Assembly (NCBI GenBank): GCA_007694185.1 | Contig: RECD01000253.1 | Span: 1-64,000, forward strand | Source of the DNA: Planctomycetaceae bacterium | Lineage (GTDB): Bacteria > Planctomycetota > Planctomycetia > Pirellulales > Pirellulaceae | Direction of reading: 5' to 3' | DNA: 64,000 bases | Part shown: in pieces, positions 37,230 through 53,469 of the stretch | How positions within the stretch are numbered: position 1 is the first letter of the stretch | How the letters are laid out: every line of letters begins with the position of its first letter | Notes under the pieces: model-generated | The model's input: the letters and a program-made list of their open reading frames with translations, nothing else | The model's database searches: none | What the model was told of the DNA's origin: nothing | Made by a program: the position numbers and the translations under genes

Positions 37230-38567
37230 ATGATCTTTGATTTCCTGTATTGCCTGGCTCTGTCAACCGTTTCACCGTTGGTCGTCTATCGGATGGCCCG
37301 CTACGGGCGGTATCGGCGGGGTTTGCGGCAAAAGCTGTTCGGCATCCGACCGGAGGACATCCCCGGTCAAGAAGCGGGGGAACCGATCGGCGACTTCGTC
37401 TGGTTTCATGCCGTCAGCGTCGGCGAGGTGAACTTGATCGCCGGGTTGGTGGCCGCCTACCGGCGTGAGCACCCTGATCAGCCGCTCGTGATCACCACCA
37501 CCACCGACGCGGGATACGACCTGGCCCGTTCGCGGTTCGCGAACGAGACCGTCTGTTTCTGTCCGCTCGATTTCAGTTGGGCAGTCCGGCAGACCTTGCG
37601 GACGCTCCGACCGCAACTGCTCGTCCTGGCAGAACTCGAACTGTGGCCCAATCTGATCCGCGAGGCCACCGCGGCGGGTTGCCGGGTCGCGGTCGCCAAC
37701 GCGCGATTGAGCCCACGAAGCGGCCGCCGGTATCAGCGATTCGGCCGCTTGCTGGCAGGCACCTTCGGCCGGTTGGCTTGGATCGGCTGCCAGGATGAGG
37801 AGACGGCGGGGCGATTCTTGGCTTGCGGGGCGAACCCGCTAGCGGTCGACGTGACCGGCTCGATCAAGTTCGACAACGCGCCGGATACGCGAGATACGCC
37901 CGATGTCCATCGTCTGGCCCGCTGGGTCGGCTTGGACCCGTGGCATCAAGTGCTGATCGCCGGAAGCACGCAGGCCGGCGAAGAGGCCGCCGCGCTCGAC
38001 ACCTACCAAGCCCTGTCGTCCGAGCACCGGCAACTCCGCCTGATCTTGGTGCCTCGTCACCGCGAGCGGTTTGATGAGGTCGCCGCGTTGATTCGTGCCC
38101 GCGGGTATCAGGTCCGTCGCCGCGGCGAGGTCAGTCCGCCGGCAGAACATTGGCCCACGACGACCGTGGTGCTGATCGACACGATCGGCGAACTGCGGCA
38201 TTGGTGGGGGGTCGGTCGGGTCGCATTCGTCGGCGGCAGCTTCGGCGACCGTGGCGGCCAAAACATGCTCGAACCGGCCGGTTATGGCAACGCGGTCTGC
38301 TTCGGGCCGAACACCGAGAACTTTCGCGAAATCGCCGACCGACTGCTGCGGGAGCGGGCCGCCGTACGACTCACGACCCCCGCCGATCTGACCCGCTTCG
38401 TCGCCGAGTGCCTCGATTCGCCCCCGGCGGCGGATGACTTAGGACGGCGGGCTCGAGCGGTGATCCAAAATCACCGCGGGGCGACCGCCAAGACGGTTCG
38501 GCGGTTGGGGCAATTGATGAATGCCCCAGAGGACCTCCCCACCAAGCTCACACGTCAGGCCGCTTGA
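37230..38567 (+). CDS. waaA: 3-deoxy-D-manno-octulosonic acid (Kdo) transferase
   Basis: 445 aa; FVWFHAVSVGEVNLIAGLV, LELWPNLIREATAAGCRVAVANARLSPRSGRRYQRFGRLL, FVGGSFGDRGGQNMLEPAGYGNAVCFGPNTENF. Confidence 0.93.
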   Translation: MIFDFLYCLALSTVSPLVVYRMARYGRYRRGLRQKLFGIRPEDIPGQEAGEPIGDFVWFHAVSVGEVNLIAGLVAAYRREHPDQPLVITTTTDAGYDLARSRFANETVCFCPLDFSWAVRQTLRTLRPQLLVLAELELWPNLIREATAAGCRVAVANARLSPRSGRRYQRFGRLLAGTFGRLAWIGCQDEETAGRFLACGANPLAVDVTGSIKFDNAPDTRDTPDVHRLARWVGLDPWHQVLIAGSTQAGEEAAALDTYQALSSEHRQLRLILVPRHRERFDEVAALIRARGYQVRRRGEVSPPAEHWPTTTVVLIDTIGELRHWWGVGRVAFVGGSFGDRGGQNMLEPAGYGNAVCFGPNTENFREIADRLLRERAAVRLTTPADLTRFVAECLDSPPAADDLGRRARAVIQNHRGATAKTVRRLGQLMNAPEDLPTKLTRQAA

Positions 38568-38676
38568 TGCCCGTCGCTGCCACTTCGTGAGCCGCTCACG
38601 GCGATGACCACCGCATAGCTCGTAGCGGCGAGGGCAGCAACCAGCGGTGACCGAAACCGGCCACAGCTGGGCAGGA

Positions 38677-39627
38677 TCAGTGCAACGGTGGGGCCGTCGC
38701 GATCCCTTGTTGAATCACCCGCAGGACCGCTTCCCGCTCCGCACCGCTGATCGACAATCGCGGCGCCCGGGTCCATTCCTTCCCGAGCCCGCATTCCTGG
38801 ACGCAGAGCTTGATGTACTGGACGAACTTCACGTGTACATCCAGGTGCAGCAGCGGCGTGAACCAACGATAGAGTTCGACCGCACGGTCCCACTCGCCGG
38901 CTTGCATCCATTCCCACAACCGTTGGTTGTGTTCAGGAAAGGCGATCCCGGTCCCGGCAACCCAGCCGTCGATCCCCAGGACGGCGCTCTCGAGCGCCAG
39001 GTCATCGACGCCGGTGAAAATCGCGTAGCGGTCACCGACGGTATTCCGCAGGTCCGTGATCCGACGGGTATCCCCGCTGCTCTCTTTGAGGGCGACGAAA
39101 TTGTCGATTTCTGCCAATTCCTCGAACATCGCCGGGGTCACATCGTTCCCGTACGAGATCGGGTTGTTGTAAACCATGATCGGCGCGTCGGTCTGGGAGG
39201 CGACTGTGCGGAAATGGGCCAGCGTCTCGTGCGGATCGGGAGTGCGGTAGACCATCGCCGGCAACAACATCACCCCGTCGACGCCGATTCGCTGAACGTC
39301 CTTGACGTAACGAACCGCGTCGGCCGTGGAGGTTTCGGCAACCCCCGACAGGACCGGGATCCGGCCCCGAACGGCCGCGACCATTTCGGTCATGACCAAC
39401 CGCTTTTCGATTTCGCTCAGCGATTGGTTCTCACCGAGCGACCCGAGGAAAATCAGCCCCTGAATGCCGCTGGCGATCAGCACTTCGACATGCCGCGCGG
39501 TCGCTTCCAGGTCGAGCGTCCCGTCGCGGTGCATCTGCGTCGTGATCGCCGGAAAGACGCCCGTCCAGAGGTGCTGGCGGCCGGCGTGGCCCGCGGTCGG
39601 TTGCGGTTCGTGGTTGGATGACATCAA
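38677..39627 (-). CDS. dihydrodipicolinate synthase/N-acetylneuraminate lyase family protein
   Basis: 316 aa; GVFPAITTQMHRDGTLDLEATARHVEVLIASGIQGLIFLGSLGENQSLSEIEK, MVYNNPISYGNDVTPAMFEEL, VALKESSGDTRRI. Confidence 0.92.
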   Translation of the reverse strand: MMSSNHEPQPTAGHAGRQHLWTGVFPAITTQMHRDGTLDLEATARHVEVLIASGIQGLIFLGSLGENQSLSEIEKRLVMTEMVAAVRGRIPVLSGVAETSTADAVRYVKDVQRIGVDGVMLLPAMVYRTPDPHETLAHFRTVASQTDAPIMVYNNPISYGNDVTPAMFEELAEIDNFVALKESSGDTRRITDLRNTVGDRYAIFTGVDDLALESAVLGIDGWVAGTGIAFPEHNQRLWEWMQAGEWDRAVELYRWFTPLLHLDVHVKFVQYIKLCVQECGLGKEWTRAPRLSISGAEREAVLRVIQQGIATAPPLH

Positions 39628-39800
39628 CGGGCTCCGGCGCGCTGGTGGTGGATCAAAAAAAAACCGGTGGCGCGGGTGAGTCGGCGGATCACCCGACCGG
39701 CAGGATAGGCCATCCGCAGCGGCTCGGCCAGTCTATCGGGTTCCCAGGCGATCACGACCAACCGGTCAGGGCCGAACCGATCGGGGCAGCGGTGTGGCAA

Positions 39801-41147
39801 CTACAGCCCGATCGCCGCTTGCAGATTCCGTTCGTCCTCCGTCAGGTCGAACATGTCCCAGACCAGTTGTCGGTCGCACTCCCGTTGCTCGACCTGGCGC
39901 CGGGCGAACATCCGCGATTGGGTACTCAGCATCACCTCGGGCGGCAACGTTGCGGTCTGCCCGAAGAGCCTCGCGTAATTGACGAAGCTGGGGACGTTCG
40001 AGGTGACGAACCCGTACAGCATGCTGCAGACGCCGATCACTTTGCCGGTGAAGATCCCGGTATTGATTGCGGTCTTGGAGTAATCGCCCATCACACACCC
40101 CATGAACTGCATCTCCGTACCGACCCGATCACTCCCGTATTCCATGTTGATCGTGCCATAGGTGTTCTTCAAATCGCTGTTGCAGGTCCCGGCCCCCAAG
40201 TTGATCCAACTCCCCAGGTAGCTGTGCCCCAAGAAGCCGTGGTGCTGCTTGTTCGAGTAAGGTTCGATCACGGACGCTTCGACCTCCCCACCGACTTTGG
40301 TCGTGTGTCCGAGCGCGACGGCGTCTTTGAGTGCGGCGTGCTCGATGATGCGGGCCCCCTCCCCGATGTGGACCGGCCCGGCGAGGAAACAGAACGGCCC
40401 AACCCGTGCCTGCTGCTCGATCACGATCGGGCCACCGCGGCTATCGATAACGACGTTTTGCCCGAGGGTGACTCCGGGCGCGACGAACAGCCCGTCCTGT
40501 GGTTGCTGATAATCACCATGCTCGATCCGCCAGGCGAGCGATTCGGACAGCGCCAGCATGTGCTGACTGACGAGATCATGCGGCCAACGAAACGTCTCGG
40601 CCGTCGGATCGGCTCGGATGACGGCCGACTCGGGAACGGTTCGGATCAGCCGTTGAACTGTCGCTTCGGTATCGTCCTGGCCGTGGGCGGCGGGACCGAC
40701 CGGTTCGATGACGCGAGTCGATTCGTCGGATTCCGCTGCCAGGGGGCGCAAACCCGTTCCCTCGGGGCCAACCCACGCCATCGCGACGGCCCCCTCGGAA
40801 TCGAGCCAGACCTGCGAGGTTTGAGCGGCGAGCAATGCTTGCAAACGGCGGAAGGCCCCGACGGTCGGCACCAAGCGGGCATTGACCAACAAGACGCTGT
40901 CGGTCGCCGCGAGCCCCTCGAGGGCCGAGCCCAGGCCGTAATCGAGCCGCTGAATCAGCCGGAGGTGGGGTCGGCAGCTCGCAAAAATCGGCAAACCGAG
41001 TTCTCGCAGCCAGTCGATCAGGCGGAAGGAGCCGCAGGAAATGGCATACGCCGGCTTGGCGGTGGTGGCAGGGGCCAACCGTCCGACGCTCGAATCCTCG
41101 AAGCAAAAAATAACGGTCCGACCGCCGGCGGGGGGAAGCATGCTCAC
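39801..41147 (-). CDS. putative sugar nucleotidyltransferase (GlmU-like, left-handed beta-helix)
   Basis: 448 aa; N-terminal variant transferase region, C-terminal hexapeptide-like repeats GEGARIIEHAALKDAVALGHTTKVGGEVEASVIEPYSNKQHHGFLGHSYLGSWINLGAGTCNSDLKNTYG. Confidence 0.88.
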   Translation of the reverse strand: MSMLPPAGGRTVIFCFEDSSVGRLAPATTAKPAYAISCGSFRLIDWLRELGLPIFASCRPHLRLIQRLDYGLGSALEGLAATDSVLLVNARLVPTVGAFRRLQALLAAQTSQVWLDSEGAVAMAWVGPEGTGLRPLAAESDESTRVIEPVGPAAHGQDDTEATVQRLIRTVPESAVIRADPTAETFRWPHDLVSQHMLALSESLAWRIEHGDYQQPQDGLFVAPGVTLGQNVVIDSRGGPIVIEQQARVGPFCFLAGPVHIGEGARIIEHAALKDAVALGHTTKVGGEVEASVIEPYSNKQHHGFLGHSYLGSWINLGAGTCNSDLKNTYGTINMEYGSDRVGTEMQFMGCVMGDYSKTAINTGIFTGKVIGVCSMLYGFVTSNVPSFVNYARLFGQTATLPPEVMLSTQSRMFARRQVEQRECDRQLVWDMFDLTEDERNLQAAIGL

Positions 41148-41553
41148 ACCTGCTGCGTAGAATTCAAAAAAATCAGAAAACCTCCGGTTCCTCGCAACGG
41201 TTATAGCCCGGCTGGCCGAAACAAGGTTGAATGAAGCTTGGTCTGCTAGTTCGCGACTCGCAAGCGGAGCTTACCAACCCCTGTAGGTCGAGTAGAATGA
41301 GGGCTCCGTTAATTGGGAAGGCTGGGAAGGATATTAGTTCCCTAGGAGTTGTCGTTCGGAAACGCTTGATAACGGTTCGAAAACAGGTGTGGGCCTTCCG
41401 TGGCGGTGGGATCCGTTGTGGGCGTGGCACCTTCCGACGAGAAATGTCGGGGTCAGTCGTCCGTTGCCTTGGCGGCCCACCGAGGCTTGCCCCAAGACCG
41501 GCCGCGTGTCGGCCGGTTACCCTGAACGTGCCGCAGCTCGCAGACGTCCAATC

Positions 41554-44500
41554 ATGCTAAAACGAACCTCCGTGTTGCCTCACCCGTATTTCGGAAACTC
41601 GGCCCCGCCAACCAGCCACCTGCTGGCGGTTTTGCGATATTGGGCCGAGGTCCGTCCCCAGCAGACGGCCTATTCCTTCACGGACGGTGATTCCACGCTA
41701 AGCTCCCTGACCTACGCGGAGTTGTGGAACGAGGTGCGGGGGTTGGCCGGGGCGATGCGGTCCCGGATCCGGCCCGGTCAGCGAATTTTGTTGCTCTACC
41801 CGCCCGGCCTCGATTTTGTCATCGGCCTGTTCGCCTGCCATGCCTTGGACGCGATCGCGGTGCCGGCTTACCCGCCGCGGAAAAACCGTCGGGCGACCCG
41901 CATCCGGTCGATCGTCGATGACGCCGACACCCGGATCGCCTTCACGACCCAAGCGGTTGCCGAGCAGTTGCGGACGGCCGATCAGCACGAGGATCTGGAA
42001 GGGCTCAGTTTCATCGGCACGGACTCGCCGGAACTGCGTGATTCGGACGCCTGGGTCGAACCGCCGTCCCTGTCGGGCGATTCACTGGCGATCTTGCAGT
42101 ACACCAGCGGCTCGACGGGGTCGCCCAAGGGAGTGATGCTGACACACCGGAACCTGCTGGCGAATTGTGAGCTGATTCTGGAGGCTTTCGAGCTCCACCG
42201 GAACGACCGGGCGATGGCCTGGTTGCCGGCCTATCACGACATGGGGCTGGTCGGGGGGATTCTCAAGCCGCTCTACATCGGGCGACCGTCGACCTTGATG
42301 AGTCCGATGACTTTCCTGCAGCGCCCGGCCAAGTGGTTGCAGACCCTGTCGCGAGAAAAAATTCACATCAGCGGCGGGCCGAACTTCGGTTACCAGCTGT
42401 GTGTGGACAAGATCGCGGACCAGGAATTAGAGGGCGTCGACCTTTCTCATTGGCGGATCGCGTTCAACGGCGCCGAACCGATCCGTCCCAAGACGATCGA
42501 TGCGTTCGTCGAGCGATTCGCCCCCTACGGCTTCAATCGCAGCGCCTTCCTGCCCTGCTACGGGATGGCCGAAACGACGTTGCTGGTAACCGGCGGTCCC
42601 AAAGAGAATCGGCCCATCTTCACCACGTTTGACGGGACCCAGCTGGATCAAAAGCAGGCGGTACCGGCGGCGGCGGAAGCCGAATACTCCAGGACGCTGG
42701 TGGCTTGCGGGCAGGTGGTCTCGGGCGAATTGGTCGAGATCGTTTCGCCCGAAACCTTCGAGATCCTGCCGGAAGGGGAAATCGGCGAAATCTGGGTACA
42801 AAGCCCGTCGGTCGGTCAGGGCTACTGGCAGGCGTTCCGCGCGACCGAGAAGACATTCGGGGGCAGAACGGCGGACGGGCAGGGGCCGTTCTTGCGGAGT
42901 GGCGACCTGGGCTTTTTGCACCAGGGTCAGCTCTACGTTTCCGGTCGCCTCAAGGACATGGTCATCATTCGCGGGGTCAATCGGTACCCGCAAGACATCG
43001 AGCAAACCGTCGAAGAGGCCTGTGACGCCGTCCAAGCCGGGTCGGTCGCGGCTTTCGCGATGACGCTCCAGGACCGCGAACACCTGGTGATCGTCGCCGA
43101 AACGGTTCGTCAGCGGGGACTCGATTGGGACGCGCATTTGCAACGAATTCGCCGGGCGGTCACCGAGGAACACGAGCTTCCGCCGGACGCGGTCTATTTG
43201 GTTCGCAACAGTTCCATGCCGAAAACGAGCAGCGGGAAGATCCAACGCCACGCCTGCATGGAAGCGGTCCGGGACGGCGATCTTAAGGTGATCGCGAAGT
43301 GGGTGCGTTGGGAGGAGGAGGCCGGGCTCGGCCGCGACGGCGGGCCGACCATGATGAGCGCCCGGGCCTCCGCCCGCACGGCGATCGCCCCGGTCGGCAT
43401 GCCCGAACTCGACTCCCGTTCGCTCGCCCCGGTGCAGGCGATCGTCCAGCAGCAGATCCGTTTGGTGGCCGGCGAACGGGCGGGTGAGCTCACTGCCGAG
43501 ACCAACATCGTCCTCGACTTGGGCCTGGACAGCCTGGAGCGTTTGCAGATCGCGCGGGCGATCGAGGAATCGCTCGGCGGCCGGTTCCCCGAGGAGGTAC
43601 TCAACCAGATCGAGACAGTGGGGGAAACCGTCCAGGCAGTCCGGCAGCACTTTCCGGCTGCCAACGTCGCCGCGGCGATCGCCCACGGGACGGCCGCGGC
43701 CGGCATTCCCGCTTTGGGCGGGGCCGCGATTGCGGAGCAGGCGGCCCCTGCCCCCGCGATCGAGTACCAGGACAGCGTCGAGCAATTCCCGGAATACCAG
43801 CGGCTGCGACAGACGATGTCTCAACTGCTGATCACCGGAGTTCCCAACCCCTACTTCACCGTTCACGAATCGGTCGTTCGCGACACCACGGTTGTCGGCG
43901 GCAAGCGGCTGATCAGCTTTGCCAGCTACAACTACTTGGGGCTGTCGGGTGATCCCGCGGTGAGCGAAGCGGCGATCGAGGCGATCCGCCAATACGGAAC
44001 CAGCGTCTCCGCCAGCCGCTTGGTTTCTGGTGAAAAGCCGATCCATGGCGAACTGGAACGACGGATCGCCCGTTGGCTCGGCGTCGACGCGTCGATCACG
44101 ATGGTCGGGGGACACGCTACCAACGAGACCACGATCGGCCACCTGGTGGGGCCGGGTGACCTGATCCTGCACGATTCGCTGTCGCACAACAGCATCGTAC
44201 AAGGCTCGCTTCTGTCTGGGGCGCGGCGGCGGGCCTTCCCGCACAACGACCCCCAGGCGCTTGACGAACTGTTGACCCAATTGCGGCCGAATTTCCGTCG
44301 GGTGCTGGTCGTCATCGAAGGCGTCTACAGCATGGACGGCGATTTCCCTGACGTCCCGGCATTCATCGAGGTCAAACGCAAACACCGGGCGATGCTGATG
44401 ATCGACGAAGCCCACAGCGTCGGCACGATGGGCCGCACCGGCCATGGGATCGGCGAGTACTTCGGCGTCAACGCCCGGGATGTCGACATTTGGATGGGAA

Positions 44501-44997
44501 CCCTCAGCAAGGCGTTTTCATCCTGCGGCGGCTACATCGCCGGCTCGGCCGCGCTGATCGAATACCTCCGCTACACCGCCCCGGGCTTCGTATTCAGCGT
44601 CGGCCTGCCGCCCGCTTCGGCCGCCGCGGCGCTGGCTTCGATGCGGGTGCTCGAGCAGCAACCCGAGCGGGTTGAAAAGCTCCGGCAGCGGAGCGAGCTG
44701 TTCCTCGGCTTGGCCCGATCAGCGGGCTTGGATACCGGTGCCAGTGGTAGCACGCCGGTCATCCCGGTGATCACCGGGAACTCGATGATCGCGCTGCGAT
44801 TGTCGCATCGGATGTTCGCCGATGGCGTGAACGTGCAGCCGATCCTCTACCCGGCGGTTGACGAATCGGCGGCCCGTCTGCGATTCTTCATCACCAGCGA
44901 ACATTCCGAGGACCAGATCCGGTTTACGGTCGATCGCTTAGTGCATCACATGCAGGAACTCGGACAAATCACTCCTCCTTCCGCCGCAGCCATCTGA
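41554..44997 (+). CDS. trifunctional fusion: fatty acyl-AMP ligase (FAAL) + acyl carrier protein + PLP-dependent alpha-oxoamine synthase (AONS/SPT/CqsA superfamily)
   Basis: Start at ATG 41554; FAAL motifs ILLLYPPGLDFVIGLFACHALDAIAVPAYPPRKNRR, LQYTSGSTGSPKGVMLTHRNL; ACP NIVLDLGLDSLERLQIARAIEE; AONS ISFASYNYLGLSGDPAV, LMIDEAHSVGTMGRTGHGIGEYF, WMGTLSKAFSSCGGYIAGS (PLP lysine). Confidence 0.95.
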   Translation: MLKRTSVLPHPYFGNSAPPTSHLLAVLRYWAEVRPQQTAYSFTDGDSTLSSLTYAELWNEVRGLAGAMRSRIRPGQRILLLYPPGLDFVIGLFACHALDAIAVPAYPPRKNRRATRIRSIVDDADTRIAFTTQAVAEQLRTADQHEDLEGLSFIGTDSPELRDSDAWVEPPSLSGDSLAILQYTSGSTGSPKGVMLTHRNLLANCELILEAFELHRNDRAMAWLPAYHDMGLVGGILKPLYIGRPSTLMSPMTFLQRPAKWLQTLSREKIHISGGPNFGYQLCVDKIADQELEGVDLSHWRIAFNGAEPIRPKTIDAFVERFAPYGFNRSAFLPCYGMAETTLLVTGGPKENRPIFTTFDGTQLDQKQAVPAAAEAEYSRTLVACGQVVSGELVEIVSPETFEILPEGEIGEIWVQSPSVGQGYWQAFRATEKTFGGRTADGQGPFLRSGDLGFLHQGQLYVSGRLKDMVIIRGVNRYPQDIEQTVEEACDAVQAGSVAAFAMTLQDREHLVIVAETVRQRGLDWDAHLQRIRRAVTEEHELPPDAVYLVRNSSMPKTSSGKIQRHACMEAVRDGDLKVIAKWVRWEEEAGLGRDGGPTMMSARASARTAIAPVGMPELDSRSLAPVQAIVQQQIRLVAGERAGELTAETNIVLDLGLDSLERLQIARAIEESLGGRFPEEVLNQIETVGETVQAVRQHFPAANVAAAIAHGTAAAGIPALGGAAIAEQAAPAPAIEYQDSVEQFPEYQRLRQTMSQLLITGVPNPYFTVHESVVRDTTVVGGKRLISFASYNYLGLSGDPAVSEAAIEAIRQYGTSVSASRLVSGEKPIHGELERRIARWLGVDASITMVGGHATNETTIGHLVGPGDLILHDSLSHNSIVQGSLLSGARRRAFPHNDPQALDELLTQLRPNFRRVLVVIEGVYSMDGDFPDVPAFIEVKRKHRAMLMIDEAHSVGTMGRTGHGIGEYFGVNARDVDIWMGTLSKAFSSCGGYIAGSAALIEYLRYTAPGFVFSVGLPPASAAAALASMRVLEQQPERVEKLRQRSELFLGLARSAGLDTGASGSTPVIPVITGNSMIALRLSHRMFADGVNVQPILYPAVDESAARLRFFITSEHSEDQIRFTVDRLVHHMQELGQITPPSAAAI

Positions 44998-44999
44998 GG

Positions 45000-45017
45000 C
45001 GTCGCCCCGGGGCGACG
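45000..45017. repeat. perfect 18-bp palindrome CGTCGCCCC/GGGGCGACG
   Basis: Direct reading; 3 nt after the synthase stop codon and 22 nt before the kinase start. Confidence 0.7.
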
Positions 45018-45038
45018 ACCGATCGGCTAACGCCCGTC

Positions 45039-46226
45039 GTGCCCATGCCCAAGCCGGTGACCCCCGCCCTCGCCCAATCGGCGAACGACGACACCCATTT
45101 TCGTCTGGTGGCGGATTCCACTTACGACTGGGAAACCTGGTTGTCAGTGGACGGACGACCGCTGTGGGTCAACCCGGCGGTCGTTCGCGTGACGGGACGC
45201 TCACCCGAAGAATGCCTCGCCATGCCGGATTACCCCTTGCCGTTGGTCGAGGCGGAAGACCGCGACAAGGTCGCCGAGATCTGGTCCCACGTGCTCGGTT
45301 ACACCAGCGGCAACGACGTCGAGTTCCGGGTTCGTCATCTCAACGGCAAGACCGTATGGGTCGCCATCTCGTGGCAACCGATGGTCACGCAAGGGGAACG
45401 ATTGGGATTTCGCACCAGCATTCGCGACATCACTCGCAAGCAGATGTTGCGGGAAGAATTGCGAATCCACGCTGAGCACTTGGAGGACCTCGTCAAGCAA
45501 CGCACGGAGCGATTGCGAAGCCTGGAACGCAAACAAGTCCAAATGGAAAAGCTGGCGGCGCTGGGGCAATTGGCTGCGTCGGTGGCCCATGAGATCAACA
45601 ACCCGTTGGCCGGCATTCGCAACGCACTCACCCTGATCCGCTCCGACCAGGCGGAGGATCACCCGCATCAGGAGATCTTCGACCTGATCGACAAAGAGAT
45701 CGACCGGATGAGCGGGATCGTCGCGCAGATGTATCAGTCCTATCGCCGCCAAACGTCGCCCGCCCATCGCTTCGACCTGGGGGTGGTGATCCGAGAGGTG
45801 CTGTATTTCCTCACCCCCTTGGCCCGTGATCGCCAGGTCCGGTTGGAAAACCGATGTGGGACAAAACCCGCCCCCGTGGAGCTTCCGGAGGATGAGATCA
45901 AGCAGGTGATTTACAATTTGGTCCGCAACGCCATCCAGGCCTCTCCCGGTGGGCACCTGGTCGAAGTCCATTTGGCCGATTCCTCGGACCATTATCGGAT
46001 CGACGTGACGGACCAAGGCACCGGGATCTCGGAGCAAGACCTGCCTGCGATCTTCGAACCCTTTTTCAGCACCAAAGGGAACGATTCTGGGACTGGGATG
46101 GGCTTGGGATTGTCGGTTTCCCAAGCGATCATCGAGTCGCTGGGTGGTAAGATTGAGGTGCAAACCCAGGTGGGGCGTGGCAGTCGCTTTTTGGCGTTCA
46201 TCCCTCGTCGACTACCGGCAAGTTGA
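45039..46226 (+). CDS. PAS-domain sensor histidine kinase (NtrB-like, no obvious TM segment)
   Basis: 395 aa; PAS region FRTSIRDITRKQMLREELR, HisKA LAALGQLAASVAHEINNPLAGIRNAL, HATPase ELPEDEIKQVIYNLVRNAIQA, GTGMGLGLSVSQAIIESLGG. Confidence 0.95.
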   Translation: MPMPKPVTPALAQSANDDTHFRLVADSTYDWETWLSVDGRPLWVNPAVVRVTGRSPEECLAMPDYPLPLVEAEDRDKVAEIWSHVLGYTSGNDVEFRVRHLNGKTVWVAISWQPMVTQGERLGFRTSIRDITRKQMLREELRIHAEHLEDLVKQRTERLRSLERKQVQMEKLAALGQLAASVAHEINNPLAGIRNALTLIRSDQAEDHPHQEIFDLIDKEIDRMSGIVAQMYQSYRRQTSPAHRFDLGVVIREVLYFLTPLARDRQVRLENRCGTKPAPVELPEDEIKQVIYNLVRNAIQASPGGHLVEVHLADSSDHYRIDVTDQGTGISEQDLPAIFEPFFSTKGNDSGTGMGLGLSVSQAIIESLGGKIEVQTQVGRGSRFLAFIPRRLPAS

Positions 46227-46277
46227 TCCGCGAGTTCTCCCCACAGCCACTTCCCCCTGCATGGCCCTTCCCCTCTC

Positions 46278-47750
46278 GTGAAACCCGCTTCTCCGCCGCG
46301 ATTGCTGCTCGCCGACGACGAGCCGCTGTACCTGCAGGCGACCTCGCAATTGCTCCGGAAGGCGGGCTTTGACTGCATCTGCGTCGCCGATGCCGAGGCG
46401 GCGATCCGCTACCTTCGCAGTGAGCCGTTCGATCTGGTATTGACCGACTTGAACATGCCGGGCAATCTCAAGCTGGAACTGTTGCAAGCGGGCCGAAAGG
46501 AATGGCCGCAGACCCCGCTGATCGTCGTCACCGGCGTCCCCTCCTTGCCGACCGCCATCGAAGGCGTCCGATTGGGGATCGCGGACTATTTGATCAAGCC
46601 GGTGCGATTCGAAATCCTGCTGAAGAGCATCCGGCGGGTCTTGGCGCGACCGCGCGAAACCGAGACGCAGGCGGACCCTTCCTCGGGAACGGCGAGCGAC
46701 AGTCGGATCATCGGCAGCAGCGAGCCGATGAGGGCGCTAAAAGAAATGATCGGGCGGGTCGCCCAGACCGATGCCAACGTGTTGATCTCGGGCGAAAGTG
46801 GCACGGGTAAGGAACTGGTCGCCCAAGCGATCCACGCGGCCAGCCGCCGTCGGGAAAAGAGATTTCAGATCGTCGACTGCACCGCGATCCCCGAATCGCT
46901 GTTCGAGTCGTTGCTCTTCGGGCACGTCAAAGGGTCGTTCACCGGCGCGGTCGACGACCAGGTCGGGCTGCTGAAACAGAGCGATCAGGGGACCGCCTTT
47001 TTTGACGAGATCGGCGAATTGCCGCTGACCGTGCAACCGAAATTGCTGCGGGTGATCCAGGAGCAGACTTTCGTACCGGTCGGCAAGAGCGAACCGACCC
47101 AACTGAACACCCGCTTCATCAGCGCCACCAATCGGAACCTGCATCACGAAGTCGAGCAGGGACGGTTTCGACGCGACCTGTTTTATCGGCTCAGCGTCTT
47201 GCACCTCGAACTCCCGCCACTGCGAGATCGGGATGATGACGTCGTCGAGCTGGCCGAACACTTCCTCCATTTGTTCACGGAGCCCGACCGTCCGATCGAA
47301 GGCTTCACGCCGGTTTGCTTGGAACGTTTCCGAGCCTACGCCTGGCCGGGCAACATTCGCGAGCTTCGCAATGCCATCGAAAGCGCGGCGGCGATGTGCC
47401 GCGGGACTTGGATCGATGTCGAGGATCTGCCCGATTGGATCGCCCGACCTGTCAGCCCAACCGACCGATCAGCGATCTACCCGCAAGGTTCGACTGAACT
47501 CACGCCGCCCCAACCCTCAGACTCCGATCCGGCCGCGACCGCCGCTTTGAACCTGCCCGTCGGCTCCCGTGAGGACGCGTTGGGAACGACCGACAAGACC
47601 TACTTCCAGACCCTGATGCGTCGCTACCAAGGCAACATCTCCCAAGCGGCCAAGCATGCCGGGGTGTCCCGCCAAACCCTCCATAAGTTGCTGAACCGCC
47701 ACAACATCTCGGCGGCGGAGTATCGACGGCCCTCCGCTGAGGACCGCTGA
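46278..47750 (+). CDS. sigma-54-dependent response regulator (NtrC family: REC + AAA+ + Fis-type HTH)
   Basis: 490 aa, GTG start; REC LLLADDEPLYLQATSQLLRKAGF..DLVLTDLNMPG; ISGESGTGKELVAQAIH; GSFTGA loop; C-terminal GNISQAAKHAGVSRQTLHKLLNRHNI. Confidence 0.96.
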   Translation: MKPASPPRLLLADDEPLYLQATSQLLRKAGFDCICVADAEAAIRYLRSEPFDLVLTDLNMPGNLKLELLQAGRKEWPQTPLIVVTGVPSLPTAIEGVRLGIADYLIKPVRFEILLKSIRRVLARPRETETQADPSSGTASDSRIIGSSEPMRALKEMIGRVAQTDANVLISGESGTGKELVAQAIHAASRRREKRFQIVDCTAIPESLFESLLFGHVKGSFTGAVDDQVGLLKQSDQGTAFFDEIGELPLTVQPKLLRVIQEQTFVPVGKSEPTQLNTRFISATNRNLHHEVEQGRFRRDLFYRLSVLHLELPPLRDRDDDVVELAEHFLHLFTEPDRPIEGFTPVCLERFRAYAWPGNIRELRNAIESAAAMCRGTWIDVEDLPDWIARPVSPTDRSAIYPQGSTELTPPQPSDSDPAATAALNLPVGSREDALGTTDKTYFQTLMRRYQGNISQAAKHAGVSRQTLHKLLNRHNISAAEYRRPSAEDR

Positions 47751-47876
47751 CTGTCAAGCCACAGCGACACCCGCTTGCGCTTTTCCGTCAACTCCAGGCG
47801 ACAGTCGTATCGAAGGATCGATTCGATCGGTCCTCTCGCCCCGTGATTCACGGCGATCCGTGCTTTTCTTCATTCC

Positions 47877-47890
47877 GGCACGGGGCTTGC
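47877..47890 (+). promoter_or_regulatory. sigma-54 (RpoN) -24/-12 promoter: GGCACGGGGCTTGC
   Basis: cGGCACG-GGGC-TTGCA matches consensus YTGGCACG-N4-TTGCW with exact GG-N10-GC spacing; intergenic, 124 nt before the next ATG. Confidence 0.8.
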
Positions 47891-47899
47891 ATTAGTAAG

Positions 47900-47925
47900 G
47901 AAGCGACAGCCGGGAGAGTCGCTTC
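47900..47925 (+). other. predicted 5'-UTR stem-loop at the expected transcript 5' end
   Basis: GAAGCGAC (47900-47907) pairs GTCGCTTC (47918-47925); predicted start site about 12 nt after the -12 GC. Confidence 0.5.
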
Positions 47926-48013
47926 GGAGAGCAACGTCGCTTTGGTTCGAGGCTGACGAAATCCTTCACGGTTTTCGAAGTTCTACGTACTTCAACAGCA
48001 CAGGCAGGTAGCA

Positions 48014-48439
48014 ATGAGAGTTTCACGTTTAAATCGTGTTTTGGTTTGTTTCGCAGTGACCATGGCGATGGGGATCACCCTGTCCAGCGTGGCAGAAGCC
48101 AGAGGAGTCAAGCCGCGTTCGACGTCCGGTGCACAACGGTACGGAGCGAGCTACTTCGCGAACGCGCCGCAGTACCGAGCGCCCGTTCAATATTCCGCTC
48201 CCGTGGTCGTGTGCCCGCCGGGCACCGTCGCCGTTGGCGAGGCAGTCGTTCGGCAGTCGCAACCGAGCACCAGCCAACGGGGCATCGTCAGCCGTGGGCA
48301 GGTGGTTCCCGGTTCCGAGCGAGTGATCAGCGAACGGGTCTTGCCGTCGACTGCGACCGCTGCCCAGCCGGTTGTCACGCCCCCGGTCCAAACGCCGGTG
48401 TCGGCACCGCAGGCGACAGCCGTTGGATCGCCGCAGTGA
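48014..48439 (+). CDS. small secreted hypothetical protein, Val/Pro/Ser/Tyr-rich
   Basis: 141 aa; signal peptide MRVSRLNRVLVCFAVTMAMGITLSSVAEA; RBS-like AGGCAGG upstream; preceded by a sigma-54 promoter and followed by a terminator. Confidence 0.72.
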   Translation: MRVSRLNRVLVCFAVTMAMGITLSSVAEARGVKPRSTSGAQRYGASYFANAPQYRAPVQYSAPVVVCPPGTVAVGEAVVRQSQPSTSQRGIVSRGQVVPGSERVISERVLPSTATAAQPVVTPPVQTPVSAPQATAVGSPQ

Positions 48440-48523
48440 GAACGAGCCGGTTGGTGACAACGCACGTCATCAGCCACGCTTAGACTCACCGACGATTTGA
48501 CCAGTCGTTTTCTTTAACGCATC

Positions 48524-48566
48524 AGGCCGGTGACGGAAATCCGTCACCGGCCTGTTTCGTTTGTTG
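48524..48566 (+). terminator. strong intrinsic terminator-like hairpin
   Basis: AGGCCGGTGACGG-AAAT-CCGTCACCGGCCT (13-bp perfect stem) followed by GTTTCGTTTGTT. Confidence 0.75.
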
Positions 48567-48840: not shown

Positions 48841-51800
48841 TCACCGGTCCTCGTTATTCTCTTCCTGCTCGTCCGCCTTCGCGTCCTCTTTCTTCACATC
48901 GTCCGTTTCGTCCGCTTCGTCCTTGATGACCGCTTCTTGGAACTGATACTCGAAACGCAAGCGGCCTACCGCCACGGTGACCCGTTGCTGAGCGGGTTGG
49001 GCGCTGAGTGTCGTTTCGATGTCGTTGTTGAAGCTTTCGATCGGGTGTTCGAGCAGTTCGATCGGCCGTCCGCTACGGGTGTCGATCGCCATCAGGTCGA
49101 GCGTTTTGACCCGGCTGCCGGTGTTGACGTATTCGGATTTACTGCGGCATAGGACCAACAAAGGAGAACCTGGGGCTTGAGTGAGAGTGCAACCCCACTC
49201 GTTGACTCCCAGCGGGACCTGCCACAGGCGTTCGCCGGTGCGGGTGGAAATCGCGATCACCGATCCGTCGACCCGGACATGATCCTGGCCACTCTGAGTG
49301 TGAAAGGCGACGGCACTCCGATCCGCGGGGGTTTCGCCCGTGTCGGGCAGGATTACGAGCATGTCGTCGCGTGGGACAACGTGAATCCGCCGCAGCTTGG
49401 GTATCGGATCGATGGTCGTTTCGCACACCAGACGCCCCTGTTGCAGGTCCCAGATCAGCAACTCGCCGGTGTTGGCCAAGGTCACGACGTAACTCCCGTC
49501 GACCACTCTGCCCAAGACGCGTCTGTCGCTTGTGAACTTAGCGTAGGTGTGTCGCAGGACCTCACGGTCGGCGATCGGATCGAGCAAAACGAGTTCGTGC
49601 TGTTCATCCGGCAGTTCACGATTAGCGAGGATCAACGAATCGGTCGCGGCCCAGATCTGATACTGCTCGAAGGGTTCGGTCGACAACAGGCGTCCGTCAC
49701 GGCAGTCGTACTTGCTGACCACCCGAGACGCGGGTGAAACGATCGCGACCACGTCGCCGTCACAGAGGATCGTGCCGCTCCGCGGCGTCACCAAATTGCG
49801 CCAACGGGGCTCCCCGGCGAGCGCGTCGTAGGCTAGCAATTCGCTCCCCTGCAAAACGTAAAAGCTGTCGCCGACGATCGGCCCCAGGACCAATTCGGCA
49901 GAACCGCCATCGGCAGTGCTCCCAATGACGAATCGATGGATCGGGTCACCGAACGAATTCGAACTGCTCGTCGGCTTCGCTCCCCCACTTCCGTCGGTTC
50001 GCCACGGCCGTCGCCAAACGACCGGATCGGTTTGTCCCGAGGTCGCTTCGAACAGGTTGACGCCGACCAGTTCCCCGGGGAGCATCGCGATCATCAATCC
50101 GCCGCTGAAGACGGCTTGGCGTGGCGAGTCTTCTCGCCGACCGTCAAGCGGAATCGGGAAGATCGTGCCCAGCGGGTCACGCAGGCCCAAGGGACTGTTC
50201 AGGTCACTGACCGCCCGCCAGCCGCGAAACGACCGGCCGACCATGCGACGGGTTTTGCCGACCGCCAATCGCCCCATCATCGAGCTGGGAACGCGGGTCG
50301 TTTCTTGAGGCACACGCAGGGTCACTTCGGGCCCCCAAGGATCGACGGCGACGGCCAGTTCCCCGTCCACCAGAATCCGCCCCATACCGAGACGTTCCGC
50401 AACCGCTTCGGTCTGTCGGTCAGCGGGCAGGGCGGCCCACAACGCCTCCGCATCCCCGGTCAAGCCGCCACGGGCGTAGGTTTCGATCAGGTTCTCGAGC
50501 TGGTCCGGTGCCAAGCGGTCGGGCGTATCGGTCGTCGCGCCGGCCGCCGCCAACAATAACCTTTCCATCGCCAAGTACTCGCCGTCCTGGCGATATCGTT
50601 CGAGCAGAACTTGTCGCAGCGATTCGGAGCCGGCGGTTCGGCCAAAATGGGTCAGCAGCAGTCGGGTACCGGCACTGGTCGCGCCCTGGTAGTCGTCCAA
50701 ATGCCTCGCGATCTCCGCGTTCATTTCCGCCCGCAGCGGCTCGTCGGCGTCCTCGAACGTCTCGCTGACCCGCGCGGCCAACCACTGATCCAGCGACACC
50801 TGGCGGGTGGAGTCGTCCGAACCCAGTTTGCCGAAACCGGACAAGGGCGAAGCCGCCGCGACCAAGCGGGATAGTTCGATCAGACGCCGGACCGCCAGGT
50901 TGCGGTCATTCGCCTCGAGTGCCGCCCGAACTTGCAGCTTTCGCAACTCGACCGCATCGTTGGGCCGGTCGATCAACTGCTCCAGCTCCGGTAGCAAGCC
51001 GGTGTTGGCTGCGAAATCGTCTCGCAGGGCGTTGAGCATCACGCGGATGGAAAGGTTTTCGACATGAACGTCCTCCGGGTCCATCTCTCGGGCGCGGTGG
51101 AGCCACCGCAGGGCCTCCTCCAGTTTGCCGTCTTGCAACAACAGTTCGGCCTGCCAAACGACAGCTCGGAAATCGTCCGGATCGGCTTCGAGGGAAGCCT
51201 CCACGACCCGCTCCAAAGCCTGCTCCCCATGCACGGCCGCTAGGTGAGTGGCGGACTGGCTCAGCAATTGGCCTTCCACCGCGACCAAGTTGCCCAGCGG
51301 GAATTGGGTCGAACGCGACGCCAGCACTCGGCCGTCTTCCAGCGACACGGCCAAGATCCGACCGGCCGTGGTCGGGACGAAGTAGGCCGCTTGCGGCTCG
51401 CCCGCCGCTTCCTCAGCCTGGGTGCCAAAGACACCGATGCCCGCGATCCATTCGCCCGCCTCCAACCACCCTGCGGGCGTTTCCCAAAGCCGTTGCCCCG
51501 ATCGGGCGTCGGCCCTGCGGACATGGTCGCTGCCGAGCAAAATCATCGCGTCATCGCGGACGCCAGCCAGGTGGCGAGAATTTTTTTGTGTCCGAGGAAC
51601 TTCCTTCCACCGCTTCTTGCCCGTCAACAAGTCGATCGCGAACAGGCGATCCGACTCGATCGGCGTCACATAAATCGTGTCACCGACGATGCGAGGCGTC
51701 CCGTCCCACCACCGCTGGAGCAGCTGGTCGGGCGACAGGTCTCGGCGGCCCCCCATCAACTGCTGGCTCATCGCTTCGTCCCGCTCGAAACGCAAACCCC

Positions 51801-53469
51801 AGATCAACGATTGGTCGAGCAGATCGATCCCCAGGATCGCGCCGGCACCGGTCGAGCAGACCAAGACGCCCTGGTGGTAGGACGGCGTCGCGCCCGCGAT
51901 CCGCCGGATCGGGTCGCTTTGGACTCGGCCCGCCTCCATCGCCACCAACTGCTGACGCCAACGTTCCAACCCGGTCGCCGCATCGAGGCAGATCAGAACG
52001 ATATCGCCCGCCGTCTCGGCCATCACGTACAGCGCGTCACCCAGCGGCAACGGGGGTCCCAGGAAAAAGATGTCGCCCCAACCATTTTCCCGGTCGGTGC
52101 GGCCACCGATCCGCCAGATCAGTTTTCCCTCCGTCGCGATGTCGAGCGCCACCAGCGAATTGGCGGTCGATTCGGTAGGGCGGACTCCCTGGAAACCCAT
52201 CATCGAATTGAACGCGGTCAACTCGACATCACTCAGATCAGAAAGCAGATAGACCCGTTTGCCATCACTGGTGATCCGGCCGTACGGCAGGTCGTTCCAG
52301 ACCCGTTGCTTCAGCAGCAGGTGGGCCGACTCCTCCTCCAAAATCACCCCGGTCGGGTCAGCCGGGTCTCGGGAGGGCGAGCCCTCGTGCCAGGGGTCCT
52401 GCCAAATCACCTTGCCGGTCTGGAAATCGATCCCGAACAGATGGCCCACCGACCTCGCCAAGACCTGGTTCCCGACCTTGATCGGCAACCAGGCGGGCGG
52501 CGGGAAATCTCCTGTCGCCGCCAGCGAATCGGCCGCCTCCTCCAACACGCGTTGCTGACTCGGGGTTTCCGCCGTCCTCACCAACCAGCGGGGTAGCGAC
52601 AACGGCAACTGGCCCGCCGATCCCTCGTGCCGCTGCGGCCCGCCGCCAAACATTCGGATGTCGCCGTCGTTGACCGCATGGCGAGCCCGCAGCGTTCCGG
52701 CCGGAGTTCGCGATTCGGCGCCGGCGGCTGACGGTTCCTCCTCATTCGCTGCGAACGGGTTAGCCGCGGAATTTCGCAGGTCGGCGACCAATTGTTCCGC
52801 CGTTTCGCGGTCCGCGGCGGCCAGCCCGGGATGCGTCAAAACCGCCTCGAGCAGCCGCAACGATTCCCACGGCCGGCCTTCTGTGAGCGCCCGCAGTGCC
52901 AGCAGTCGGGTCGCGTCCAATCCGGCCCGTGTATGAAAAAACCGCCTGCGGACCTCGGCAGCAGCCGACCAATCTCGCTGAGCGCGACCGCGTTGCAACA
53001 ACTCCCGGGCATCGACGCCGTAGCGCAATTCGTAAGTTTCGATCGCCGTGGCAGGCAAGCTGCCGAGCAGTCGGCGGGCTTCGCCGAACAGCGTTTTTTG
53101 AACAGGGGACTCCAGGCCCGCATTATCCCCGTCGCCGCGGGGAACCGCCGGGCCGACACGTCGCTGACCCAACTCACCCGCAGGATCGCCGACGTCCAAA
53201 AAAAAGTCTTGCCCGGACAATTCGTCGTCATCATCGGCCGAGGGCTGGCGTTGCAACAGATCGCCCAAAATCACGACCGCGTCGCTGGGCCGCTGCTGTT
53301 CGATCGCCCGCTCCGCTTCCCGCAACGCCTGCAACACCGACCGCGGGGGTTCGACCAAACGGCCCGAGTTGGACTGTTGCCCCATCTGAAAAAAGACTTG
53401 CGCGCGTGCCGAAGCCGGGGCGAGGAACAGGACCAGACCGAGCAGGGGGCAGATCGCCGAGCGAATCAT
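48841..53469 (-). CDS. large secreted PQQ-like beta-propeller protein with TPR-like middle region
   Basis: 1542 aa; signal peptide MIRSAICPLLGLVLFLAPASARA; repeated LVALDIATEGKLIWRIGG, LICLDAATGLERWRQQL, LFAIDLLTGKKRWKEV, VIAISTRTGERLWQVPLG. Confidence 0.88.
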   Translation of the reverse strand: MIRSAICPLLGLVLFLAPASARAQVFFQMGQQSNSGRLVEPPRSVLQALREAERAIEQQRPSDAVVILGDLLQRQPSADDDDELSGQDFFLDVGDPAGELGQRRVGPAVPRGDGDNAGLESPVQKTLFGEARRLLGSLPATAIETYELRYGVDARELLQRGRAQRDWSAAAEVRRRFFHTRAGLDATRLLALRALTEGRPWESLRLLEAVLTHPGLAAADRETAEQLVADLRNSAANPFAANEEEPSAAGAESRTPAGTLRARHAVNDGDIRMFGGGPQRHEGSAGQLPLSLPRWLVRTAETPSQQRVLEEAADSLAATGDFPPPAWLPIKVGNQVLARSVGHLFGIDFQTGKVIWQDPWHEGSPSRDPADPTGVILEEESAHLLLKQRVWNDLPYGRITSDGKRVYLLSDLSDVELTAFNSMMGFQGVRPTESTANSLVALDIATEGKLIWRIGGRTDRENGWGDIFFLGPPLPLGDALYVMAETAGDIVLICLDAATGLERWRQQLVAMEAGRVQSDPIRRIAGATPSYHQGVLVCSTGAGAILGIDLLDQSLIWGLRFERDEAMSQQLMGGRRDLSPDQLLQRWWDGTPRIVGDTIYVTPIESDRLFAIDLLTGKKRWKEVPRTQKNSRHLAGVRDDAMILLGSDHVRRADARSGQRLWETPAGWLEAGEWIAGIGVFGTQAEEAAGEPQAAYFVPTTAGRILAVSLEDGRVLASRSTQFPLGNLVAVEGQLLSQSATHLAAVHGEQALERVVEASLEADPDDFRAVVWQAELLLQDGKLEEALRWLHRAREMDPEDVHVENLSIRVMLNALRDDFAANTGLLPELEQLIDRPNDAVELRKLQVRAALEANDRNLAVRRLIELSRLVAAASPLSGFGKLGSDDSTRQVSLDQWLAARVSETFEDADEPLRAEMNAEIARHLDDYQGATSAGTRLLLTHFGRTAGSESLRQVLLERYRQDGEYLAMERLLLAAAGATTDTPDRLAPDQLENLIETYARGGLTGDAEALWAALPADRQTEAVAERLGMGRILVDGELAVAVDPWGPEVTLRVPQETTRVPSSMMGRLAVGKTRRMVGRSFRGWRAVSDLNSPLGLRDPLGTIFPIPLDGRREDSPRQAVFSGGLMIAMLPGELVGVNLFEATSGQTDPVVWRRPWRTDGSGGAKPTSSSNSFGDPIHRFVIGSTADGGSAELVLGPIVGDSFYVLQGSELLAYDALAGEPRWRNLVTPRSGTILCDGDVVAIVSPASRVVSKYDCRDGRLLSTEPFEQYQIWAATDSLILANRELPDEQHELVLLDPIADREVLRHTYAKFTSDRRVLGRVVDGSYVVTLANTGELLIWDLQQGRLVCETTIDPIPKLRRIHVVPRDDMLVILPDTGETPADRSAVAFHTQSGQDHVRVDGSVIAISTRTGERLWQVPLGVNEWGCTLTQAPGSPLLVLCRSKSEYVNTGSRVKTLDLMAIDTRSGRPIELLEHPIESFNNDIETTLSAQPAQQRVTVAVGRLRFEYQFQEAVIKDEADETDDVKKEDAKADEQEENNEDR

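Follow-up and report, generated by a model that had tools for sequence, protein, structure and literature searches.

Gene organization of the locus

The window analyzed here is a stretch of 64,000 nucleotides (nt) from a Planctomycetaceae bacterium (contig RECD01000253.1, positions 1–64,000), and all feature coordinates are window positions. On its forward strand it contains a gene pair for a soluble PAS histidine kinase and an NtrC-type response regulator, followed by a sigma-54 promoter and the gene for a small secreted protein. The kinase gene (45039–46226) starts with GTG and encodes 395 amino acids, and the regulator gene (46278–47750) follows after a gap of 51 nt. The promoter (47875–47891) precedes the gene for the secreted protein (48014–48439), and an intrinsic terminator with a 14-pair stem and a T-rich tail after the stem lies at 48523–48554. 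Upstream of the kinase gene, at a distance of 41 nt, is a gene (41554–44997) for a fusion of fatty acyl-AMP (adenosine monophosphate) ligase, acyl carrier and pyridoxal phosphate (PLP) oxoamine synthase, a lipid amino-ketone synthase judging from its Pfam and NCBIfam domains. An earlier note on this DNA had described the genes, their tight gaps, the sigma-54 promoter, the secreted protein and the terminator, and all of these elements were located where it had placed them or a few bases away.

The kinase matches the Pfam domains PAS_3, HisKA and HATPase_c. No transmembrane segment was found in it, and its maximum 19-residue hydropathy was 1.04, which does not agree with a membrane-embedded sensor. 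As the kinase is soluble, its cue is probably cytoplasmic. The orthologues keep the PAS motif T-x-DWE-x-W, the H-box and the ATP-binding motifs. The regulator has the architecture REC-AAA+-HTH_8 (Pfam Response_reg, Sigma54_activat, AAA_lid_14 and HTH_8), and its sigma-54 contact loop reads GSFTGA; in the orthologues in which the loop was found, it reads G[A/S]FTGA. The genome encodes rpoN (Sigma54_DBD match). Among the named models, the kinase matched AtoS best and the regulator NtrC/AtoC, and all curated cut-offs were missed.

A tandem operator upstream of the sigma-54 promoter

The promoter CCGGCACGGGGCTTGCA (GG at 47877, GC at 47889) scores 15.6, the highest value in the 64 kb, and is the sole site with a score of at least 15.5. 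A sigma-54 promoter is found at the same place in the related genome G002, and in the relatives strong sigma-54 sites concentrate around the kinase pair. The regions upstream of those sites share the dyad TGTC-N10-GACA, which is 23 times more common there than in pieces drawn at random from those loci. An activator matrix was derived from the kinase loci (n = 52), with the window and the related loci G002 and G003 excluded from training, and its consensus is the palindrome YGTCAAC-N4-GTTGACR, located upstream of sigma-54 promoters. When the window was scanned with this held-out matrix, just two scores above 14 were obtained in 64 kb, 16.0 at 47751 (CTGTCAAGCCACAGCGACAC, 47751–47770) and 18.1 at 47785 (CCGTCAACTCCAGGCGACAG, 47785–47804). 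The second site, the best of the 64 kb, begins 34 nt after the first, and neither palindrome is assigned to a strand. Both sites, which the earlier note had overlooked, fall between the stop codon of the regulator gene (47750) and the promoter (47875), and the arrangement in G002 is alike. The locus thus combines an adjoining HisKA/HATPase kinase and REC-AAA+-HTH regulator, a contact loop together with rpoN, and palindromes before a -24/-12 promoter, as expected for an NtrC-type system.

The specificity of the combination of activator site and promoter was quantified with column-shuffled motifs and control loci. The 64-kb window contains one combination; shuffled motifs gave 0.09 on average, and 8.5% of them gave at least one. 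Across the pair loci 66 combinations were found, spread over 42 of the 52 loci, compared with a mean of 0.8 and a maximum of 4 for column-shuffled palindromes. None was present in 410 kb of loci from the same order or in 768 kb around other kinases. The distances between operator and promoter group near multiples of the helical turn, with a best period that is not sharply defined.

In a strict-pattern scan of the 5.8-Mb genome, the tandem operator was unique. The strict sigma-54 pattern occurred at 26 places, versus 17 for a control pattern, and just the promoter at 47875–47891 has an activator site; the other 25 have none. Further pieces of the same genome contained weak operator-promoter combinations only. 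A single degenerate pattern for the activator site was also tried on the whole genome and was rejected as too unspecific (159 places versus 79 for a reversed control). Among the strict sigma-54 sites elsewhere in the genome are sites before groES, a groEL, a Flp-type pilin gene and a gene for a CheY-like receiver (L202, L209, L216 and L210), all of them without an activator site.

The secreted protein and the targets in related genomes

The small protein has 141 amino acids and, according to its translation, a signal peptide ending in AEA, followed by KPRST and ASYF motifs and the C-terminal residues VISERV. It had no Pfam or NCBIfam match and is probably disordered. A search with the single sequence retrieved only the protein of G002 and one marginal match, and motif and alignment searches were needed to reach more members. 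With these, these secreted proteins were detected in 25 of the 199 genomes sampled in the taxonomic family. Small secreted relatives adjoin the kinase-regulator pair in G001, G002, G004, G017, G268 and G325. Most secreted proteins linked to an operator share the order of a signal peptide ending in A-x-A, an RST motif and a glycine-aromatic motif. A sigma-54 site with a score of at least 14.0 lies within 200 nt upstream of 21 of the 29 hits, and the operator is confined to the 10 hits that adjoin a kinase pair; members without the operator presumably answer to another activator.

A wider set of tiny secreted proteins (L312–L329) was observed in genomes of the same taxonomic family. They carry an RST-x-ERR-x-HPG-x-GF motif and have strong sigma-54 promoters about 145–160 nt upstream. 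The operator of the present regulator was not found before any of these genes, and since they have sigma-54 promoters without it, a second activator is likely for this set.

Two genomes are informative for the link between regulator, operator and secreted protein. In Alienimonas chondri, a member of the Planctomycetaceae that was outside the training set, the stretch just upstream of the kinase and regulator genes contains a pair of operators together with a sigma-54 site and a small secreted protein; apart from this case, little was gained by the scan of named genomes. In G003, which belongs to the same genus as the window, the regulator (L027, 10043–10687 in the orientation of the kinase) consists of REC and HTH, and the whole AAA+ domain has been lost cleanly and in frame. 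The downstream operator, the sigma-54 promoter and the secreted gene are missing from G003 as well, and this natural deletion fits the link between the regulator and these elements.

Operator-bearing promoters in the relatives precede not only genes for small secreted proteins, but also genes for Rnk/GreA-like, CsrA, Usp, S30AE/HPF-like, NhaA and short membrane proteins. The nature of these target genes beside the pair suggests a starvation, stationary-phase or ion-stress regulon.

A proposed two-component module and the extent of its regulon

In our judgement, the region 45039–48554 is very probably a self-contained planctomycete two-component module of the NtrB/NtrC type that drives the adjacent gene for the secreted protein. 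At the level of sequence comparison, the gene pair, the operator, the promoter and their association are well documented; the phosphotransfer, the binding, the activation, the signal and the function of the secreted protein are what we infer. The soluble PAS kinase would read a cytoplasmic signal and phosphorylate the neighbouring regulator. The phosphorylated regulator would then bind the tandem palindromes, contact the sigma-54 polymerase by looping and induce an open complex at 47875–47891, and the small protein would be made and exported. The input is probably the general metabolic or starvation state, because the same pair and operator stand before stress and stationary-phase genes in relatives. 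In the genome of the window, the secreted protein next to the pair may be all that is left of the regulon.

Several points weigh against this interpretation. It relies on comparative sequence data. Loci chosen for their sigma-54 sites served as the training set of the operator matrix, and those that are related do not count as independent cases. The whole-genome scans used strict patterns, so that further targets are possible. G003 is a draft genome, and a possible assembly fault weakens the case of the natural deletion.

The alternative that survives best concerns the extent of the regulon, namely that it is wider in this genome too and that the secreted protein is one of several targets. Relatives have several targets near the pair, and the strictness of the patterns in the scans of the own genome leaves room for more. 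However, the tandem operator is unique genome-wide, the remaining 25 strict sigma-54 sites have no operator, and other pieces of the genome yielded weak combinations at most. A wider regulon is therefore possible, but we regard it as the less likely case.

The synthase and its linkage to the pair

The protein encoded at 41554–44997 has 1147 amino acids with matches to AMP-binding (E 6e-69), an acyl carrier domain (E 6e-9) and Aminotran_1_2 (E 1.5e-43). Its oxoamine-synthase domain scored 342 bits with bioF, 304 bits with a serine palmitoyltransferase model (cut-off 640) and 141 bits with the alpha-hydroxyketone synthase model (cut-off 428), and no equivalog cut-off was reached. Among solved structures, the closest ones are for the most part serine palmitoyltransferases. 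Since the ligase, carrier and PLP domains are intact, the sequence suggests that a fatty acid is activated, loaded onto the enzyme's own carrier and condensed with an amino acid, in the manner of sphingoid-base synthesis. The same three activities are found in a serine palmitoyltransferase system with a dedicated acyl carrier protein and an acyl-ACP synthetase (PMC9386255), and also in the same fused layout in a protein of Blastopirellula marina (A3ZWL3), catalogued in 2013 as a fusion of AMP ligase, acyl carrier protein and PLP enzyme (PMC3870968).

The 41-nt gap between synthase and kinase showed no T-run terminator, and therefore the synthase and the pair may be co-transcribed. Between the stop codon of the synthase gene and the kinase start, a perfect palindrome was noticed (CGTCGCCCCGGGGCGACG, 44999–45018) that has a weak activator-site score of 12.7. 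It was set aside because the matrix scan revealed no comparable site in the same gap of G002 or G003.

Kinase orthologues were found in 46 of the 397 genomes of the order. In 47 of the 52 kinase loci, the regulator gene follows the kinase gene. The synthase was matched in all 30 sampled relatives, in most of them with the full fusion, and relatives without the kinase pair still have it. However, it adjoins the pair in just 3 of the 52 loci, those of the window, G002 and G003. In the other pair-bearing relatives of the first sample the synthase is elsewhere in the genome, and these include two genomes from the genus of the window, G001 and G004. In the kinase tree, the three synthase-linked kinases form one clade with a support of 100/100, and thus a single origin of the linkage is the simplest explanation. 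When 23 loci were compared all against all, the neighbours of the synthase proved to be conserved within the genus only, plus scattered recurrences. Conservation of the whole block was thus limited to the nearest relatives with respect to the synthase, whereas kinase, regulator and secreted protein are conserved together beyond them.

These results bear on two explanations that include the synthase. The pair could monitor the lipid or envelope status and be co-expressed with the synthase to balance its output and that of the secreted protein. Read-through from the synthase into the pair is probable given the gap without a T-run terminator, and the envelope-type gene kdtA is located upstream. 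However, neither an operator nor a strong sigma-54 site was found upstream of the synthase in the window scans, the kinase is cytoplasmic, and the synthase neighbours are not kept beyond the genus, so that we consider such a feedback improbable. Less probable still is a lipid autoinducer circuit, in which a hydrophobic amino-ketone from the synthase is sensed by the PAS kinase and switches on the secreted protein, similar to quorum sensing by alpha-hydroxyketones: the adjacency with a 41-nt gap in three species speaks for it, but the linkage is restricted to one clade, pair and synthase occur independently of each other, the kinase is soluble, the synthase domain resembles BioF and serine palmitoyltransferase much more than alpha-hydroxyketone synthase, and elsewhere the same operator precedes stress genes.

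The earlier note had proposed a sense-and-respond locus with the synthase as the source of the signal. The part that is well supported is the route from kinase and regulator to the sigma-54-dependent secreted gene, in line with the tandem sites, the arrangement in Alienimonas chondri and rpoN. The synthase appears to be an unrelated neighbour outside this circuit, and the lipid-signal circuit was rejected on the grounds of distribution, promoter evidence and kinase topology. There is a very slight chance that, in the clade of three species, the PAS domain was captured as an intracellular sensor of the synthase's long-chain amino-ketone; if so, a lipid-to-secreted-protein switch would have been built from an older stress system.

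Comparison with known systems

The module resembles AtoS/AtoC, ZraS/ZraR and NtrB/NtrC in its domain layout, the GxFTGA loop and a sigma-54 promoter with tandem upstream palindromes. It differs from them in that its kinase is soluble and has a conserved PAS domain of its own, its operator is different, and its targets are small secreted proteins and stress genes of planctomycetes. CqsS/LqsS-type sensors are membrane receptors. The parallel to CqsA/CqsS and LqsA/LqsS that had been drawn in the earlier note is confined to an enzyme of the same PLP superfamily near a kinase; in contrast to those systems, the present enzyme is fused to a ligase and a carrier and is a poor match to alpha-hydroxyketone synthases (141 bits compared with 342 for bioF), the kinase has no transmembrane segment, and the linkage is not conserved. 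A functional parallel is chlamydial CtcB/CtcC, from the same Planctomycetes-Verrucomicrobia-Chlamydiae group, a sensor kinase and NtrC-type regulator that control sigma-54 transcription and whose initiating signal is not known (PMC7482065). The comparison is one of function, and, unlike that of the present pair, the CtcB/CtcC regulon comprises late development and secretion (PMC7482065).

In a 2025 survey, sigma-54 control was predicted for Usp, CsrA, chaperonin and NtrC-type regulator genes in Planctomycetia (PMC12316311). In the passages of that survey considered here, no activator of this kind is assigned, and its main text does not contain the activator-site terms looked for (PMC12316311). 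The present pair and operator would account for a portion of the predicted regulon. Our literature search, which mostly covered papers outside subscription, retrieved no report of this pair, its operator or the secreted family, nor of an activator or operator tied to the planctomycete sigma-54 regulon. In summary, the mechanism is ordinary, but the two-component system is new and well delimited; its operator is defined, and the family of sigma-54-driven secreted proteins is an undescribed one. Little of the gene regulation in planctomycetes has been mapped, and the locus provides an activator pair, a sharp operator and neighbouring targets across dozens of genomes. The system is directly testable, and a tempting but unsupported lipid-signal story has been removed.

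Neighbouring genes

Upstream of the synthase, the region 37230–41234 contains a Kdo-transferase-like gene and, behind it, two genes (38647 and 39618) that matched no family, and this arrangement is kept 5′ of the synthase within the genus only. On the other side, a convergent gene on the reverse strand (48841–53469) encodes a protein of 1542 amino acids with PQQ/BamB-type and TPR repeats, which adjoins the pair in G003 too.

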